Positions 1,647 to 34,625 of a DNA stretch of 36,119 nt are shown one piece after another; position 1 is the stretch's first letter, and each line of letters begins with the position of its first letter. The position numbers were made by a program, and so were the translations under genes. The notes under the pieces were generated by a model. It was not told the DNA's origin, did no database searches, and saw only the letters and a program-made list of their open reading frames with translations. The DNA is from a virus, in the IMG/VR virus record IMGVR_UViG_3300025913_000957, positions 1 through 36,119 of that record. One strand, written 5' to 3'.

Positions 1647-4583
1647 TTACTGGATCGAGATTTCGTAAATGAACAACGAGCATGAGGCTCCGCCCGGTGG
1701 AGTACCAGCGGACATCGATGCTGTTGCGTTCACGGTAACCGTGGATAGGTTCGTCCCGGACGGAATCGTGAGTTGATAAACCGACTTGGCAAACGTGCCA
1801 CCGAAGACGGCCAATGAGTGATACGTCCCGCCGATGTTCACACCGAGATTTGCCGAACCGCCAGTACCGGAGATGAATTCAGCCGTGACGGTGATCATCG
1901 TCGATGACGTTGTTGTGACGTTCGGGAACCCGCTCCATGTGCCGTTGCCGTTTGCCGTCTGTGCGGACCCGCCTATATCCGTCCACCACGTCGCATTGAC
2001 CATCGCATACGTCGTCACATCGAGGTCATACGCACGGTTCGTTGACGTTGATGTCGTGGTGCCCGAATCCGTGAACGTCGAAGGCAAGTACGACTGGTTA
2101 TAGGTCGGCGTCGTAATTGAGCCGATGACATACGCACCGGGTACACCCGTGTAGTCAGCTTGATTCTGCGTTGCAATCGGTGTGATTATTCCACCCAAGA
2201 AATTCGGGTCGAAGTAGTACACGGTGTATCGCTGACCCGTATTCAGTCCCGTGATGATGTTCGGTGACGGTGTGCAGCTTACCGTCAGAACACCTAGTGT
2301 CGAATCGAAGTTATCGACCGTGATCTGAGCGGCTGTAGGCGAAATAGCCTGAGCCGTGAGCACGTTCTGACCGAGGAACGGGTTCCCGACCTTGCCCGGC
2401 ACGTGTGCGACCGGGGCACCGGAGAATACAGCCGAGACGACCGGGATGACGTTCACCGACGCTTCAACCCATTCACTCGGTACGTTTGCATGGTTCACCG
2501 CACGGACCTGAACGTTGTAGTCTTCTCCATCGATCACGGAACCGATGGACAGGTGGTCAACCGTTGCAGAGACCTTTGTTAATCCTGTCCACACCGTAGC
2601 GGTAGACAACTGGTACTGCACTTCAAGGTGTCCACCGAAGACCACGTTCGCGTCGTTGGGAACATCCCAACGCACGTAGATGGTGTTCGACACACGACCA
2701 TCCGCACCTGTAATGACAGTGGACGGATAGACGATGCCGTCAATCGTTGCGCCGTATCCGGAGTACGCGACAACATTCTCAGGTGGAGCACACACGCTGT
2801 TACCGACCGACTGAGGTTCTTTGTAGCCCTGCGGCGTCAGTTGCTCCGTGACAAGCCAGTCATAGATAGACGAGTCCGTCTCAGCGAGGTCTAGCTCCAC
2901 ATATGGCGTGAGAGCGCCGTTGTCCTTCTGCTCGAAGCCGAGCTTAGACGAGAGGACTTCGAAGTTCTTGTTCACCCACGTGTAGCGAGGATGCGTCAAT
3001 TGAATCACATCGAGAGCCACGGCCTGATATGCCTTCAACGTGAAGCGAGTGGTGAGCCGCATCTGATTGCGGAGCCTGAGCAAGGCAATCTTCGCCAGTC
3101 GCTGAGCTACGGCTGAGGAATTCGTACATGGGAAGTTCGTCTCAAGGAAGATTCGTTCTCCGCCGTCTTCGGCTAGGTACGGATCAGAGGCGTACCCGTG
3201 AGTGGCGTCCTGCATGTACGGCGGAATGTCCGCTTGCTGGTAATCATTTTCAGGGGACGACATTGCGCCTTTGACTGCATTCGCCGTGTCTCGAATACTC
3301 AGACGCGGCTTGAAGTGGATAGCACCGACAATGTCGCTGTCATTCAACTGAAGCGTGGGAGCAACCCAAGCGCCGGGGACGATGTTGTACGTTCCGCCCT
3401 GATACGAGATGCGCCCGGCACACGAGGACAGCAGATTCTTGAGAATGTTGCCGCGTGAGTCGTTCAACAGGAACGCCGTGTCACACGTGTAACGCTTCGT
3501 GAAGCCGCCCTGAGCCAGCGGTACGAGTTCGTCACAGACGTTTGCCGCCGCTATAAGCTGTGCGGTCGGGATGTCCGTACCGATAGTAAGACCGAAGCCG
3601 CCTTTAGACGTGGGCAGTGACAGGAAGTCAGCGATGCAGAGAGCCGGGTTGTTCGAGAACCCGCGAATCCCCGTGCGAGGGTCAAGGATGTCATTCTTGC
3701 CGTTGATGACGAAGCTGAGGTTAGGAATCGAGGATGGGAACACAGCATCGTCGTAGCCCATCTGAACGTACACCAGAGTGCGGCCTAAGCAGAGGTCGTT
3801 GTGTCCCCACGTGGTACCCGCGTTAAGCAGTGTCGAGAACGTCGTCGTGTGGTTGCCAGTCAGAAACGACACACGAATCTTGTCCTTATAGTCCGCGTAG
3901 AGCGTCCGCATGTAGCCACCGGATGTGGAGCCGTCTGTTCCGCCGCACACGTAGGTGAATGTAGAGTTATCAGCCGGGTTAGGCTGTGCGATGACCCACG
4001 TGCCGTTGTAGCTGTTGTCAGCAACGTTCGTGATCTGAATCTCAGTTCCGTCAAGATTAGGAACGCCGCTCGTGATCTGGAACGTCACGACGCCGCTACT
4101 CCGCGTCATGTTGATGATGTTAACCTTCAACTGAGTCGGCGAAAAGCTGACGTAGTCGGAGCCGGACGGAGTCATCAACACTTGCTTACCGTCAATGCGA
4201 AGTTGCCAGGAGCCGAGAGCACACGGATGAGCGGCTAGGCAATATACGCGGTGGAGTTGTTTGTCATTTGATGTCGAACCCGATACACCTGTGTTGTTGT
4301 TCGACTCTTCGAATATCTTGACGCCACCGACCTTCTGAGTGCCGTAGACATACGACCACGGAGCGATAGGGGTGGTGACTGCGACTGCGATTCCGCCCTG
4401 ATTCTTCGCGAGTGCGGATGCAACTCCAGTTAGAACCTGTGAAGCTCCGAACGAAGCGAGAGCGCCAGCGGCTGCACCTTGGGACAGGTACAGTCCAGCG
4501 ATTGCGATACCGCCAACCGGAACGACGAACGCGGCTCCAATGGCTGCGGCTCCGATGGCTACTTCTGCTATGGCTTTGCCCAT
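1647..4583 (-). CDS. Tail tip / host-specificity protein, J-like (978 aa)
   Basis: This is the large central tail-tip protein that contacts the host at the end of the tail. The N-terminal 50 residues are Ala/Gly-rich and hydrophobic. A PIAPWSYVYGTQKVGG segment and a domain of about 450 residues follow, as in phage lambda J-like proteins. A fibronectin-III-like domain lies near residues 600-720 (the SEWVEASVNV end is typical), then a Thr/Ser/Gly-rich beta region that probably forms the distal receptor-binding part. Length and position (last structural gene, directly after an NlpC/P60-like gene) match the family. The ATG directly follows the TAA of the preceding gene and has AGGA upstream. The call rests on domain style and synteny. 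Confidence 0.8.
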   Translation of the reverse strand: MGKAIAEVAIGAAAIGAAFVVPVGGIAIAGLYLSQGAAAGALASFGASQVLTGVASALAKNQGGIAVAVTTPIAPWSYVYGTQKVGGVKIFEESNNNTGVSGSTSNDKQLHRVYCLAAHPCALGSWQLRIDGKQVLMTPSGSDYVSFSPTQLKVNIINMTRSSGVVTFQITSGVPNLDGTEIQITNVADNSYNGTWVIAQPNPADNSTFTYVCGGTDGSTSGGYMRTLYADYKDKIRVSFLTGNHTTTFSTLLNAGTTWGHNDLCLGRTLVYVQMGYDDAVFPSSIPNLSFVINGKNDILDPRTGIRGFSNNPALCIADFLSLPTSKGGFGLTIGTDIPTAQLIAAANVCDELVPLAQGGFTKRYTCDTAFLLNDSRGNILKNLLSSCAGRISYQGGTYNIVPGAWVAPTLQLNDSDIVGAIHFKPRLSIRDTANAVKGAMSSPENDYQQADIPPYMQDATHGYASDPYLAEDGGERIFLETNFPCTNSSAVAQRLAKIALLRLRNQMRLTTRFTLKAYQAVALDVIQLTHPRYTWVNKNFEVLSSKLGFEQKDNGALTPYVELDLAETDSSIYDWLVTEQLTPQGYKEPQSVGNSVCAPPENVVAYSGYGATIDGIVYPSTVITGADGRVSNTIYVRWDVPNDANVVFGGHLEVQYQLSTATVWTGLTKVSATVDHLSIGSVIDGEDYNVQVRAVNHANVPSEWVEASVNVIPVVSAVFSGAPVAHVPGKVGNPFLGQNVLTAQAISPTAAQITVDNFDSTLGVLTVSCTPSPNIITGLNTGQRYTVYYFDPNFLGGIITPIATQNQADYTGVPGAYVIGSITTPTYNQSYLPSTFTDSGTTTSTSTNRAYDLDVTTYAMVNATWWTDIGGSAQTANGNGTWSGFPNVTTTSSTMITVTAEFISGTGGSANLGVNIGGTYHSLAVFGGTFAKSVYQLTIPSGTNLSTVTVNATASMSAGTPPGGASCSLFIYEISIQ

Positions 4584-25511: not shown

Positions 25512-25547
25512 CAAAAGAAAAACCCGGAGCCACGTGGGCGTCCGGGT
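25512..25547 (-). terminator. Intrinsic terminator ending the replication operon
   Basis: On the minus strand ACCCGGA, GCC-rich inner pairs and TCCGGGT form a strong GC-rich hairpin (25522-25547), followed at once by TTTTTCTTTTG. This is a textbook intrinsic terminator. It lies 28 bases after the stop of the 46-codon gene and 230 bases before the first late gene, separating replication and late transcription. Confidence 0.8.
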
Positions 25548-25715: not shown

Positions 25716-25812
25716 ACAAACTGATACTCGCAAGGCACGTGCGCGGCGGGTTCTGTCAGTGTTTTAAGAGAGGTCGGAAAACACTTGCTAGGCCATTTTT
25801 TCCATATACTCT

Positions 25813-26048
25813 GCCCCCCCAAAAATCTCATTAGGCTTTTACCCAGCCTAACGGGAGCCTAATAGAGCTACCTAATCCAGAAATGAGAAGACCTAACTAT
25901 AAGAAATATATATATATAATTTTCTTTTTTATTGGGGGGCACACTATATCGGGAAAATGGCCTAATCCGACTCGGGTCAGAGAAAAGTGACCGGATTCGG
26001 AGCCTAATCGTAGGCTGTTTAGAAAGCGGAGCCTAACAGAAAGCCTAA
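25813..26048. other. Candidate replication origin: CCTAA repeats around an AT-rich core
   Basis: Eight direct CCTAA copies (starting 25847, 25858, 25871, 25892, 25961, 26003, 26032 and 26044) and one inverted copy (25831) lie in about 220 bases. Chance would give less than one. Several extend to GGAGCCTAAY. They flank a 31-base stretch of almost pure A/T (25901-25931). Inverted G/C runs, GCCCCCCCAA (25813-25822) and TTGGGGGGC (25932-25940), bracket the left half. Iterons plus an unwinding element directly beyond the 3' end of a primase-ATPase gene are the classical layout of a phage or plasmid origin. No DnaA box was identified with confidence. Confidence 0.65.
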
Positions 26049-26060
26049 TCGGGAAAGCCC

Positions 26061-28592
26061 TCAAACGTCTCTCAGAGACTTGACGAGAACCCACACCGGA
26101 GTTTTCACAGCGATGCTTTCCTTCTGAGTTTTCGGGTCCCACTTTCCGATTGAACCGTCGTCTAGCATTGCCTTCTTTGTCTGATTGACGAGCGACGCAC
26201 CGAAGCGATACGCACCGCAGCTCTGCGCCATCGTTGGCCAGTGAATCAGACGATGCGCAATCTTGGGATCATCACAGACCTGACTTGGCTGTGGCGCTCT
26301 GGGGAACACAACCTTGCCGCTCTTCTGGTCCTGATACACCTTCATGATCTTGCGTTGTAGACGCTCATAGCACTTCGCTGGCTTGTCTTCCTCGCTGCGA
26401 CTGCTGCGGAACTTCCGACGAATCTTGAGCTGCCACTCACAGAACGCCATTGCGTGGTCTAGTGAGTTCTGGGAAATTTCCGGTTCGCCATTGAAGGACG
26501 ACTGGATCAAAGCAATACGACGCGCCAGATTGCCCGCCCGGTTCCAAACATCAGAGCAGAGCAGGCTCTTGCCCCAGTCGTTCGTGATCTTGTAGGCGCT
26601 CTTTGGCACCACGCAGCCGCAGGGTTTCGTTTTAGGCTTCGGGTATAACTCGAACCCTTCAAAGTCTAATGCTGTGTCGGTGTACCCGAAGATTAGTCGA
26701 TCTAGAAAGCCTGAGTTGGAGTCTTTGCCGAACAGCTCCGCAAAGTCTTCCTCAGTCTTGACGGCTAGACCACCGAGCAGACTTGGCTCGCCGCTACACG
26801 TGAGTTCTTTGCCGACTGGAGAGTACTTGAAGGACTTCTCATAGAACATCGTGCAGAGCAGTTCGCCTAGGATGGAACCTTCAAGGCGCATCAGCTTCAG
26901 CAAGCTCTTGAACTCATCAGCGACGAAGACTTTGGTGTCTCCCTGTTCGCCAATGGCGTTGATGAGACCGGGAGCCGACACTGGAAGTCCCGGGTAGACG
27001 TTCGGCTCTGCTAGACCAATACTCCTTTTTGCTGCGCTCATCACCGTGCTCTTACCCCCGGACACTCCCCCAATCAGGGCGCAGTACAGGTTTGTGTTCT
27101 CCGGCCATGGTGCGCGGTGCCATACGTCCGGCAGCGCAGCAGCACAGGTCAGCAATGATGGGTAGACCCAACCCAACGGGAGGTTCGACTTGGTCAGCTC
27201 CTCCGCAATCCTGCCCAATTCGCCATGGAGAGCATTCTCATCGAATTTGAGATCGTCGGCGGTCTCAGACTCTTCGTTCTCTTCCTCTGCCATCTGTGGC
27301 TCAGCAGTATCCTCTTCAGCTTCATCGTCGTCGAGCACTGCCACGCTGCTGTGGTGGTCATAGTCCGCCGGAAGCAGCAAACGACGCGCACGATTACCTA
27401 AACCAGCGAGGTCATCTTCTCCCACATGCTGCTTCAACCATGCGTGCTCTTCCGGTGTGAGCGGACTATCGGGGCTTCTCGTCTCGACGGCTGGCTCTGG
27501 CTTCTGCTCTGTCTCCGCATCGGGTTCAGCAATTTCTTCCCACGCCCATTCGCTATCGTCGTCTTCCTTCTCTAGGTACACAGGACCCTCGTACCGCTCG
27601 TATCCCGCTTCGTGTAGATGACGCAGAACATCCCCCATTGACCATTCCGACGCAGGGCAACTGCCGTGGTGACACTTGAAGCCCAGCCCCTCCTTCAGAA
27701 TCAAGCGAGCCGGAGCGCCAGCGTGTGGTTTGCCCCAGCCGGGACATTCAGACAGATAGAAGACACCATCCTGTGAGCCGGGATACACGTTGAAGTCGTA
27801 GTGACGGCAGAAGGCTTCAAAATCAAATTCCGGGTCCATATCACGAGGAACCGCCACGGACTCCCGAGCATCCTGCGGAAGCAGATTCACAATCGAGTTC
27901 AGATCATCTAGCGATAGCACATCCGGTTGCTCGGGGAGCGTGATGATGTCAGACCGACGCCACGGACGACTAGGCTTCTCCGCTCCTTTACGCGCCCAGG
28001 TGCCTGCCAGCTTTGTAATCCTGCTTGGGTTCCAGACGACGGTGTCAATGTGGGCAGCTTCCAGATGTTTGAATGTGTGGGCCAAAGCGCGAAGCACATT
28101 TGACACCAGTACACGGTTCTCAGCAGTGTTCTCAAGATCGAGCTTGTAGAGCAGATGGTATCCGTTTCCCGAGTCTACGACGCCCGGTTTGGGCCAGCGG
28201 TGGTCACGGCGAAGCGTGCGCTCGACCTCAACCACCATGTCCCAACAAGCCTTCTTTTCATCGTCAGACGAATTGTCTTCGCCTTCTGGCTTGTGGGTGT
28301 CAAAGTCAATCAGCAGATTACGGTAGTGAGTGATTTGGTTATCGTTCACTGCGCTGTGATCGGGCATCACAAGCTCGTCCGTGAGCGGATTGAGTGTGAT
28401 GTAGACAGCTTTAGAAGTGGGACGACAGCTGGCCTTATATGCGGCTAGAGCGGCTTTGTCTGGGCTCTCGTAGAGAGCAGGTCGCATACCCTTGTCCGAA
28501 GTCAGCAGCCGCATCTCAAACGTGCCAGTAGGGTGAAGCCACGTGATGAACTTCGTGATGTCCTGAACGATTTGTTCCTGACTCTTCTCCAT
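26061..28592 (-). CDS. Replication protein: AEP-type primase fused to P-loop ATPase (843 aa)
   Basis: The N-terminal third looks like an archaeo-eukaryotic-type primase: LLIDFDTH (Asp96 and Asp98), SGNGYHLLY (141-149) and HIDTVVWNPSRITKLAGT (181-198). A Cys/His knot follows (Cys283, then KCHHGSC at 306-312). An acidic linker, about 340-450, leads to an ATPase with Walker A GGVSGGKST (508-516) and Walker B VFVADEF (555-561), similar to the DUF3987-type replicative ATPases of mobile elements. It would prime and perhaps unwind DNA at the adjacent CCTAA-rich origin. It is followed by that origin and the terminator. It could also be an origin-binding initiator. Confidence 0.82.
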   Translation of the reverse strand: MEKSQEQIVQDITKFITWLHPTGTFEMRLLTSDKGMRPALYESPDKAALAAYKASCRPTSKAVYITLNPLTDELVMPDHSAVNDNQITHYRNLLIDFDTHKPEGEDNSSDDEKKACWDMVVEVERTLRRDHRWPKPGVVDSGNGYHLLYKLDLENTAENRVLVSNVLRALAHTFKHLEAAHIDTVVWNPSRITKLAGTWARKGAEKPSRPWRRSDIITLPEQPDVLSLDDLNSIVNLLPQDARESVAVPRDMDPEFDFEAFCRHYDFNVYPGSQDGVFYLSECPGWGKPHAGAPARLILKEGLGFKCHHGSCPASEWSMGDVLRHLHEAGYERYEGPVYLEKEDDDSEWAWEEIAEPDAETEQKPEPAVETRSPDSPLTPEEHAWLKQHVGEDDLAGLGNRARRLLLPADYDHHSSVAVLDDDEAEEDTAEPQMAEEENEESETADDLKFDENALHGELGRIAEELTKSNLPLGWVYPSLLTCAAALPDVWHRAPWPENTNLYCALIGGVSGGKSTVMSAAKRSIGLAEPNVYPGLPVSAPGLINAIGEQGDTKVFVADEFKSLLKLMRLEGSILGELLCTMFYEKSFKYSPVGKELTCSGEPSLLGGLAVKTEEDFAELFGKDSNSGFLDRLIFGYTDTALDFEGFELYPKPKTKPCGCVVPKSAYKITNDWGKSLLCSDVWNRAGNLARRIALIQSSFNGEPEISQNSLDHAMAFCEWQLKIRRKFRSSRSEEDKPAKCYERLQRKIMKVYQDQKSGKVVFPRAPQPSQVCDDPKIAHRLIHWPTMAQSCGAYRFGASLVNQTKKAMLDDGSIGKWDPKTQKESIAVKTPVWVLVKSLRDV

Positions 28593-30633: not shown

Positions 30634-30664
30634 TACGCACTCCGTTTTGAGGTATTACTTAAAA

Positions 30665-30826
30665 GTGCGCCAACGTCCCGTGAAGCGCCATATCGTGCTA
30701 CGGTTCCGCAGTTGTCAGCAGACTGATGGCACAGTGCGTCTCACCACCATCAAGCGCGATGTCATTCTTCCCCGAGTACCCGACATCGTGATTCGGAAAG
30801 CAAAGCGAATTGTTGTGGCGGTCTAA
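30665..30826 (+). CDS. Possible small basic protein upstream of the NusG-like gene (53 aa)
   Basis: A GTG-started frame (30665, or 30680 for 48 residues) encodes a very basic, strand-rich protein (VKRHIVLRFRSCQQTDGTVR, ending KRIVVAV). Its TAA overlaps the next ATG as TAATG, the arrangement of a translationally coupled pair. The NusG-like gene has no ribosome site of its own, so coupling would explain its translation. A weak GAGG is 11-12 bases ahead of the first GTG. No family is recognised. Confidence 0.45.
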   Translation: MRQRPVKRHIVLRFRSCQQTDGTVRLTTIKRDVILPRVPDIVIRKAKRIVVAV

Positions 30827-31959
30827 TGCTTCTGTATGCCGGTGACAGGTCACTACTCGTTGACTTGCCTTGGTATTGCGCTGAACTCGCCAACTACGCT
30901 TCTGGGCGCTCTACTTTCGTGAGCACCATCAAACGTCTCGCTCGGCATCTTGGGAGTTTCCCAGTCGAGGTTTACATTCCCCAAGATCTGTCTGATGCAA
31001 ACAAGACCTTGGCTCTGCGTACAGGAAACCTCATCTTCATTCGAGCGGAGACCTTGAGCAAAGTGAAGTCGCTCACAGCCGTTGCCGGAGTTCAGCACCT
31101 CGTCACCAAAGATGGAAATCCGAACTATCGGACTGCGCTCCGGATTGACGACGACTTTGTTCAGACCATGCTCGCTCAGGAGCAGAAGGAGAGAGCCGAA
31201 AGAGCAGCAAGCATCAACCTGGGATCGTGGGTCCGCATAATCGACGGGACCATGCGCGATTTACACGGGACGGTGACAGCACTTGGCGGAGGTACCGCTG
31301 TGGTCACCGTGAAGATGCTGACGCGCACTTTGCTCTGCGAGGAACCGCTCGGGAACCTTCTGCCGATGGATCATGTTCCGCAAAGCCAGAGAGTCTGGTT
31401 CTACTGCGACACCGTCAGAGAGTTTGATGAGAGTCGCAACTCCGAAAGCCCGTCTCTGATTGGTCTGAAGAACTATCACGACTCCGGGTCCGCAGCTTCG
31501 TTGAAGATGTGGGCCAATCTTAGCCTTGAGAGCCGCGAGCGTCATCGTCAGAAAACGCAAGCTGCTATGGCAAAGAACTGGGCGGGGGCTGGGCCGCGTC
31601 GTTCAACGATGATTGCCGCGATCCGCAAGGGGCGCGAAGCCTACTACTCTTCCATGGGCAAGCACCGACCAGACGACAGGACGCAAGCAAAGCAATGGTA
31701 TCGACGCACGCCAGAACAGCAAGCTGCGCATACAGCCAAGATGGTGGCAGGTATCAAACGGTTCTGGGCGACTGCTTCACCTGAGAGGAAGGCAGAGATA
31801 TCTGCTATGCATCGTGAGGTTCTGCGTTTGCGCACACCAGAGGAGCGCAAAGCTATCGGAGTGAAATCTGCGGAGACTTCGAGACGGAAGAAATCTGAAA
31901 AAGCCAGTCTCGCAGCGGAACTCACAGCCAACTCGCTAAAAATATTTTTACGAACGTAA
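30826..31959 (+). CDS. NusG-like NGN-KOW protein fused to NUMOD3-like repeats (377 aa)
   Basis: Residues about 14-118 read as a NusG N-terminal (NGN) domain: an early Trp-Tyr, then VEVYIPQ, GNLIFIRAE and AVAGVQHLVTKDGNP. Residues 131-180 are a clear KOW domain (GSWVRIIDGTMRDLHGTVTA, then NLLPM). The C-terminal 150 residues are basic, with repeated units of about 20 residues beginning S/T-P-E (TPEQQAAH, SPERKAEI, TPEERKAI, earlier SLESRERH), as in NUMOD3 DNA-binding repeats, but no HNH or GIY-YIG nuclease follows. NusG paralogues bind RNA polymerase and promote processivity or antitermination. The repeats may tether it to DNA. It heads the plus-strand early operon. Confidence 0.72.
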   Translation: MLLYAGDRSLLVDLPWYCAELANYASGRSTFVSTIKRLARHLGSFPVEVYIPQDLSDANKTLALRTGNLIFIRAETLSKVKSLTAVAGVQHLVTKDGNPNYRTALRIDDDFVQTMLAQEQKERAERAASINLGSWVRIIDGTMRDLHGTVTALGGGTAVVTVKMLTRTLLCEEPLGNLLPMDHVPQSQRVWFYCDTVREFDESRNSESPSLIGLKNYHDSGSAASLKMWANLSLESRERHRQKTQAAMAKNWAGAGPRRSTMIAAIRKGREAYYSSMGKHRPDDRTQAKQWYRRTPEQQAAHTAKMVAGIKRFWATASPERKAEISAMHREVLRLRTPEERKAIGVKSAETSRRKKSEKASLAAELTANSLKIFLRT

Positions 31960-32845: not shown

Positions 32846-32876
32846 AACGGCCAGCTTTGGGTTGGCCGTTTTTTAT
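32846..32876 (+). terminator. Intrinsic terminator after the NusG-like operon
   Basis: AACGGCCA (32846-32853) pairs with TGGCCGTT (32863-32870), an 8-bp stem with a 9-base loop, and is followed by TTTTATTT. It ends the plus-strand operon 27 bases after the last stop codon. Confidence 0.88.
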
Positions 32877-34196: not shown

Positions 34197-34224
34197 TGCG
34201 GCAGGGTCACTGCGCTCTGCCGCA
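34197..34224. repeat. Hairpin repeat copy 1
   Basis: TGCGGCAG and CTGCCGCA form an 8-bp stem with a 12-base loop. A copy differing at a few loop bases occurs exactly 400 bases downstream (34597-34624). There is no T-run, so this is not a simple terminator. It lies in the 80-base gap ahead of the gene at 34248. Confidence 0.7.
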
Positions 34225-34247
34225 CAACCATGAAGGAGAACAAGCAA

Positions 34248-34592
34248 ATGTTAGGTGGCAATCGCAAAGTCCAGGTCGCCTTGCTGGCCGTGGAGATTGA
34301 AGAAACGAAGTTGCTCAAGACAGGCAAGGGCCTGCTCTTTGAGAACGGAAACATGGACATGATGATGTTCGTCCGTTTTCTGATTTCACTGATCAGGCAT
34401 ATCCACTACAACTCCAAGGACTACCCCCGCGATCTGGAACGTGTAATGACCCCCGTCTCCTATGCGCTCGCAGTGCTGGGGGCAGAGGATGCTCAATTTA
34501 AACCATTCTGGGAAGCTGCTATTCGGTTGCACGGATCCTCCGCTGCGGCAGCCCAAGAAACAGAGCGCGGGCAAAGTGAGCAAGGCCAGTGA
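34248..34592 (+). CDS. Hypothetical protein flanked by hairpin repeats (114 aa)
   Basis: The ATG at 34248 has AAGGAG 9 bases upstream; earlier in-frame starts (34176 and 34230) lack a ribosome site. The protein has a Met-rich segment (NGNMDMMMFVRFLISLIRHI) and a Ser/Ala/Gln-rich disordered end (GSSAAAAQETERGQSEQGQ). I recognise no family. Near-identical hairpins stand before and after it, suggesting it may have been moved or duplicated as a unit. It is convergent with the excisionase-like gene. Confidence 0.6.
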   Translation: MLGGNRKVQVALLAVEIEETKLLKTGKGLLFENGNMDMMMFVRFLISLIRHIHYNSKDYPRDLERVMTPVSYALAVLGAEDAQFKPFWEAAIRLHGSSAAAAQETERGQSEQGQ

Positions 34593-34595
34593 ACA

Positions 34596-34625
34596 TTGCG
34601 GCAGGAACTCTGCGCTCTGCCGCAA
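34596..34625. repeat. Hairpin repeat copy 2
   Basis: TTGCGGCAG and CTGCCGCAA form a 9-bp stem with a 12-base loop, nearly identical to the element at 34197-34224. Both copies are preceded by GGCCAGTG. It lies between the stop of the 114-residue gene and the convergent excisionase-like gene and may serve both strands. Confidence 0.7.

Follow-up and report, generated by a model that had tools for sequence, protein, structure and literature searches.

The antitermination systems best studied in phages, lambda N, lambda Q and HK022 put RNA, act on or together with host factors, which for N include the host NusG. To our knowledge, little is known about transcription control in phages of Acidobacteriota. 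A viral record from IMG/VR (IMGVR_UViG_3300025913_000957; 36,119 nucleotides, analysed whole and called the window below) raises the question of what a NusG-like protein might do when the phage itself encodes it and extends it with a long basic tail. The window carries an integrase at its right end and minus-strand genes for terminase, portal, protease, capsid and tail, and looks like a temperate siphophage; it is a soil phage, probably of Acidobacteriota, a host assignment taken from its relative Tunturi_5. The initial annotation had read the protein, here P0001, as a NusG/RfaH-type factor fused to NUMOD3-like DNA-binding repeats in an early operon, and had proposed a site-specific antiterminator. 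New here are a family of phage NusG-like proteins, the differing C terminus of the window's member and the recurrence of the family with a Q-like regulator (Table 1).

Table 1 Features of the NusG-like locus and its surroundings in the window
Feature	Position	Strand	Basis or remarks
Terminator-like hairpin, TTTTTCTTTT tail	25512–25547	−	−19.7 kcal/mol, z −2.3; absent from consensus scan list
Partner, 264 aa, Q-antiterminator/sigma-region-4-like helix-turn-helix	29839–30633	−	Sub-threshold PF06530 and sigma70 matches; homologs
Divergent intergenic region, 192 bp	30634–30825		May carry promoters for both regulators
NusG-like protein P0001, 377 aa	30826–31959	+	ATG to TAA
NGN domain, residues ~14–105	30865–31140	+	Family/phage NusG alignment, AF2 element order, Foldseek to NusG/RfaH
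KOW domain, residues ~130–182	31213–31371	+	Profile matches to Spt5 KOW, NusG, L24; five predicted strands at 135–180
Basic C-terminal repeat region, residues 218–345	31477–31860	+	51-residue repeat, S/T-P-E motifs
Downstream gene, 133 aa	32134–32535	+	Looks like coiled coil, then basic KRxMSxEAxxKIxxAM segment
Downstream gene, 95 aa	32532–32819	+	Family shared with Tunturi_5 gp87 and bacterial plasmids
Intrinsic terminator	32846–32870	+	11-bp stem, T tail; fold z −4.2

A phage-encoded NGN–KOW module

The reading frame and the motifs first reported for P0001 are present (GNLIFIRAE at residues 67–75, GVQHLV at 88–93 and GSWVRIIDG..LHGTV at 133–150). Codon statistics place the strongest coding signal of both halves in the annotated frame, with 24.4 bits for the N half and a weaker 7.4 bits for the C half, for which the remaining five frames are negative. 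Among NCBIfam models, P0001 matched UpxY (E = 4e-5), RfaH (E = 1.2e-3) and NusG (E = 1.4e-3) over residues 65–167 and no other family. Because its scores lie far below the curated cut-offs (23.7 bits against 100 for UpxY, NF033644; 18.9 against 144.5 for RfaH, TIGR01955; 18.5 against 135.7 for housekeeping NusG, TIGR00922), P0001 is a remote member of the group rather than a UpxY, an RfaH or the housekeeping NusG itself. The NusG model was also matched by five other members of the family described below. The top phage family was PHROG 6386 (‘transcription antiterminator’), in a collinear match. A two-sequence profile retrieved Spt5 KOW domains and A. aeolicus NusG from the PDB, and a profile search placed matches to the KOW domains of Spt5, NusG and L24 at residues 104–180, directly after the NGN domain. 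In hhalign, the family profile aligned with four other phage NusG-like proteins at 94.7% probability (E = 6e-8), against 1.1% for an unrelated domain used as a control.

An AlphaFold model built from four sequences has moderate confidence over most of residues 1–190 (ten-residue means mostly 62–85, lower at about 21–30 and 51–70) and arranges the elements of P0001 in an NGN-like order followed by a beta barrel. Foldseek, a check that the initial annotation had proposed, matched 28 PDB entries at E ≤ 0.001, each of them a NusG, an RfaH or a structure that contains Spt5. NusG, RfaH and Spt5 took the top ranks (probability 1.00, E from 1e-5), and the viral proteins matched in BFVD carry the names NusG and RfaH. 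The low global TM-scores are in keeping with a model in which the domain orientation and the C half are uncertain. NCBIfam, hhalign, the family and the modelled fold agree on a NusG/RfaH-type first half, and P0001 combines the NGN domain and the directly following KOW domain of the NusG/Spt5 superfamily. Judged by sequence and model, residues 1–200 are an NGN–KOW (NusG/Spt5-type) module, for which we predict polymerase binding.

The module departs from housekeeping NusG in its KOW domain. The phenylalanines F137 and F161 are invariant in the phage NusG alignment, but neither position is Phe in the family members compared. In housekeeping NusG, the KOW aromatics (of the GPF loop and the IFGR phenylalanine) serve contacts with S10 and Rho. 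With such aromatics lost, P0001 is therefore unlikely to bring in Rho or S10 as NusG does.

A small family with a different C terminus

A tblastn search of 50,697 phage records recovered a single relative, gp25 of Tunturi_5 (XOB77468, annotated ‘transcription antiterminator’), which is homologous to P0001 over residues 1–197 (37.8% identity, E = 2e-19). Tunturi_5 is a 309-kb jumbo phage, a myovirus, of Tunturiibacter (Acidobacteriota) (PMC11924767). Pattern scans added five further members from IMG/VR (L020, L033, L035, L037 and L038). No relatives were found on plasmids or in the genome collection, although the latter was scanned with short exact patterns, which can pick up none but close relatives. 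By these comparisons, the front half of P0001 is common to a few otherwise unrelated phages.

Beyond the KOW domain, a C-terminal domain of about 110 aa is common to five of the six relatives (Tunturi_5, L020, L033, L037 and L038), and L033 and L037 extend it with a cysteine-rich tail. The sixth is frame-broken: the NusG-like gene at L035:5619–6597 has a frame break where KOW begins, which may be an assembly error or real. We rejected the idea that the C half of P0001 is a version of this domain (hhalign 0.1%; profile score −0.7, equalled by 85 of 322 scored shuffles), and a BLAST extension to about residue 251 against L037 and L033 was likewise unsupported by the profile-versus-shuffle test. 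Set against its relatives, P0001 no longer has the usual domain, through either loss or replacement.

A Q-like regulator recurs with the NusG-like gene

The strongest contextual evidence is the gene that diverges from that of P0001, to which the initial annotation made no reference. Its product is weakly similar to the phage antitermination Q families, and its L038 homolog (41% identity, E = 3e-51) has a weak, collinear match to them over the helix-turn-helix region. Scores against PF06530 fall below the gathering cut-off of 26 bits both for the partner (18.3 bits) and for that homolog (24.2 bits, E = 3.5e-5), which also matches PHROG 79 (‘anti-termination protein Q-like’; E = 7e-4). The partner differs from Q in scoring below the cut-off, in a second putative helix-turn-helix and in a weak similarity to sigma region 4; its structure model is poor (pLDDT 39).

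In the 50,697 phage records, the only relative of the partner is gp346 of Tunturi_5 (38.9% identity, E = 9e-55), so that the single record with the NusG-like gene is also the single record with the partner. GenBank calls gp346 (PP885688.1, 301753–302487) an ‘exonuclease’; given its homology to the window's Q/sigma-4-like protein, that annotation is probably wrong. When the window's 273 reading frames with 60 codons or more were compared with the whole Tunturi_5 genome, three gave convincing matches: the partner, the NusG-like protein and a 95-aa ORF. We discounted the last from the module because its family also occurs on bacterial plasmids (of Methylobacter, Xanthomonas and others). By that test, therefore, the two regulators are common to phages that share almost nothing else. 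In Tunturi_5 the two genes lie about 32 kb apart, across the circular join, whereas in the window they are divergent and adjacent.

Partner homologs also occur on two of the five contigs that carry the other relatives, namely G013 (the 463-kb contig of L033) and G016 (that of L038, where the NusG-like gene follows the homolog on the same strand, about 1.2 kb downstream). None was found on G012, G014 and G015, which may be fragments. The evidence for pairing is good but not conclusive, because the records are few and the association may owe something to a host phylum in common.

Organization of the locus and candidate termination sites

The NusG-like gene comes first in a short rightward unit, continues with the genes for the coiled-coil and 95-aa proteins and is closed by the intrinsic terminator; the unit diverges from the long leftward array of replication and structural genes. 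The label ‘early operon’ is unproven for a gene that heads such a unit. No sigma-70 consensus promoter was found in the divergent intergenic region. A possible basic ORF of 59 codons with a TTG start (30647–30826, plus strand) has a stop that overlaps the NusG-like start as TAATG, and the two may be translationally coupled. The 133-aa downstream protein had no convincing family match.

The long array extends leftward from the Q-like gene, by way of the primase, to the structural genes, and the terminator-like hairpin separates the primase and origin-like region from the late genes. We regard this hairpin as a candidate antitermination target, although it could simply end the early unit. The origin-like region (25789–26068), beside the primase, has a 37-nt inverted repeat (81%) that encloses an AT-rich core, together with several repeats of the CCTAAT type; no relatives of the primase were found among viral contigs.

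Among possible recruitment elements, nothing resembling ops, nut or boxA was identified, and Rfam gave no match. Two near-identical 28-nt hairpins (TGCGGCAG...CTGCCGCA; 34197–34224 and 34597–34624) flank the ORF at 34230–34592; they are the sole copies in the window and were not linked to the NusG-like protein. An ops-like string in the first was discarded, as a 10-mer with two mismatches is by estimate expected many times by chance.

These features bear on whether P0001 acts at a phage site at all. It could instead be a host-takeover factor that competes with the host NusG for RNA polymerase and globally lowers Rho-dependent termination or the coupling of host transcription, with the tail as a non-specific DNA tether and no specific phage site. 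Such a factor would fit the loss in the family of KOW aromatics that phage NusGs conserve, the basic tail (net charge +20 for residues 205–377, against 0 in the N half), the lack of a recruitment site and a gene that heads not a long operon but a short, separately terminated unit. We nevertheless think it rather unlikely, as recurrence alongside a Q-like regulator points to a defined circuit of the phage. The site-specific antiterminator proposed initially is a plausible role for P0001.

A basic repeat tail in place of the usual domain

The C half contains an ungapped internal repeat of 51 residues (218–268 against 280–330), with a BLOSUM62 score of 66 where 300 shuffles gave a mean of 29.2 (sd 5.3, maximum 57). 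Motifs of the form [S/T]PE stand at residues 295, 318 and 337, and at least three were found in 0 of 10,000 shuffles. AlphaFold predicts helices here at low confidence (pLDDT 26–51). No homologs of the C half were found in searches that included the 50,697 phage records, and Pfam, PHROG and the PDB gave no convincing match for the repeats. A match to the repeat protein 4bwr (E = 0.02) was weak and probably compositional, and the downstream coiled-coil protein showed no similarity. Since the C half has no homolog and its model is of low confidence, it is the charge and the motif that lead us to describe the tail as a basic, probably helical repeat region that probably contacts nucleic acid.

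The weak coding bias, the missing homologs and the low model confidence could also reflect a degenerate or drifting extension that makes non-specific contacts at most, leaving the NGN–KOW half as the only part that matters. This is distinctly unlikely, given an internal repeat that scores far above shuffles and 173 codons that stay open without a stop.

By eye, the serine- or threonine-started basic helical segments recall NUMOD3 (PF07460), the identity given to them initially. The S/T-P-E motifs, above shuffles, and the basic charge hold; the NUMOD3 identity is not supported, as PF07460 matched nothing in the 36-kb record at E ≤ 10 and Pfam scans found none either, and we treat the resemblance as one of motifs only. 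In L038, a GIY-YIG nuclease gene with S/T-P-E segments (3422–4051; Pfam E = 1.1e-7) immediately precedes the Q-like and NusG-like genes. It may be a mobile element within this locus and makes capture of the tail from a mobile nuclease imaginable. Capture of the C half from the DNA-binding part of a NUMOD3-like homing endonuclease, which would let it recognize a specific DNA site, is very unlikely: its basic helices do begin with S/T-P-E and such a nuclease does adjoin both genes in L038, but the profile is unmatched and the pairwise similarity to the nuclease C terminus is no better than that of shuffles (116 of 500 equally good).

Proposed mechanism and known systems

With the front half shared and the usual tail exchanged for basic repeats, P0001 is therefore probably a custom antitermination factor. 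We favour, with moderate confidence, a specialized NusG homolog with an exchanged tail, encoded by the phage, that would work with its Q-like partner and carry transcription past the hairpin at 25547–25512. The NGN domain is predicted to dock on the elongation complex of the host RNA polymerase at its clamp helices and gate loop, so that pauses and terminators are resisted; NGN domains in general make these contacts and act against pausing (PMC7819879). Through the tail, the factor would gain further contacts, with upstream DNA or with nascent RNA, that confer selectivity or affinity. In the simplest circuit, the NusG-like and Q/sigma-region-4-like proteins together would carry polymerase leftward through the replication genes and past the hairpin into the structural genes. 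A broader and more tentative idea, which we would not yet bet on, is that the two proteins form a system spread among otherwise unrelated phages, probably of Acidobacteriota, in which an exchangeable C-terminal module, here the basic repeats, sets the specificity for nucleic acid.

P0001 shares its NGN–KOW architecture with UpxY, RfaH, LoaP, TaA and ActX, and like them would be a specialized NusG homolog and likely an operon-directed antiterminator (PMC7819879, PMC12691694). It differs from them in scoring below the curated cut-offs, in being encoded by a phage, in its extra C-terminal region and in its pairing with a Q-like protein. LoaP is a NusG paralog able to antiterminate alone (PMC12691694). 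RfaH, with a KOW that switches fold, is directed by ops, and LoaP is recruited by a small RNA hairpin in the leader of its target; P0001 has no assigned ops element or LoaP hairpin. T. maritima NusG has gained an extra domain, DII, that stabilizes binding to the elongation complex (PMC7819879), whereas the addition in P0001 is another one, the C-terminal basic repeats. Tunturi_5, otherwise unrelated to the window phage, is closest in having both regulators, but its gp25 ends in the common domain of about 110 aa.

Implications

If the proposed mechanism is true, a phage with its own NusG homolog and a Q-like regulator would represent a different way of holding RNA polymerase on phage DNA. The exchanged tail would be a natural domain-swap experiment on the target selectivity of NusG paralogs. 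Both Tunturi_5 and its host are in culture (PMC11924767), which opens the pair to tests in an isolate; if confirmed, it would offer a first way into the transcription control of phages of Acidobacteriota.
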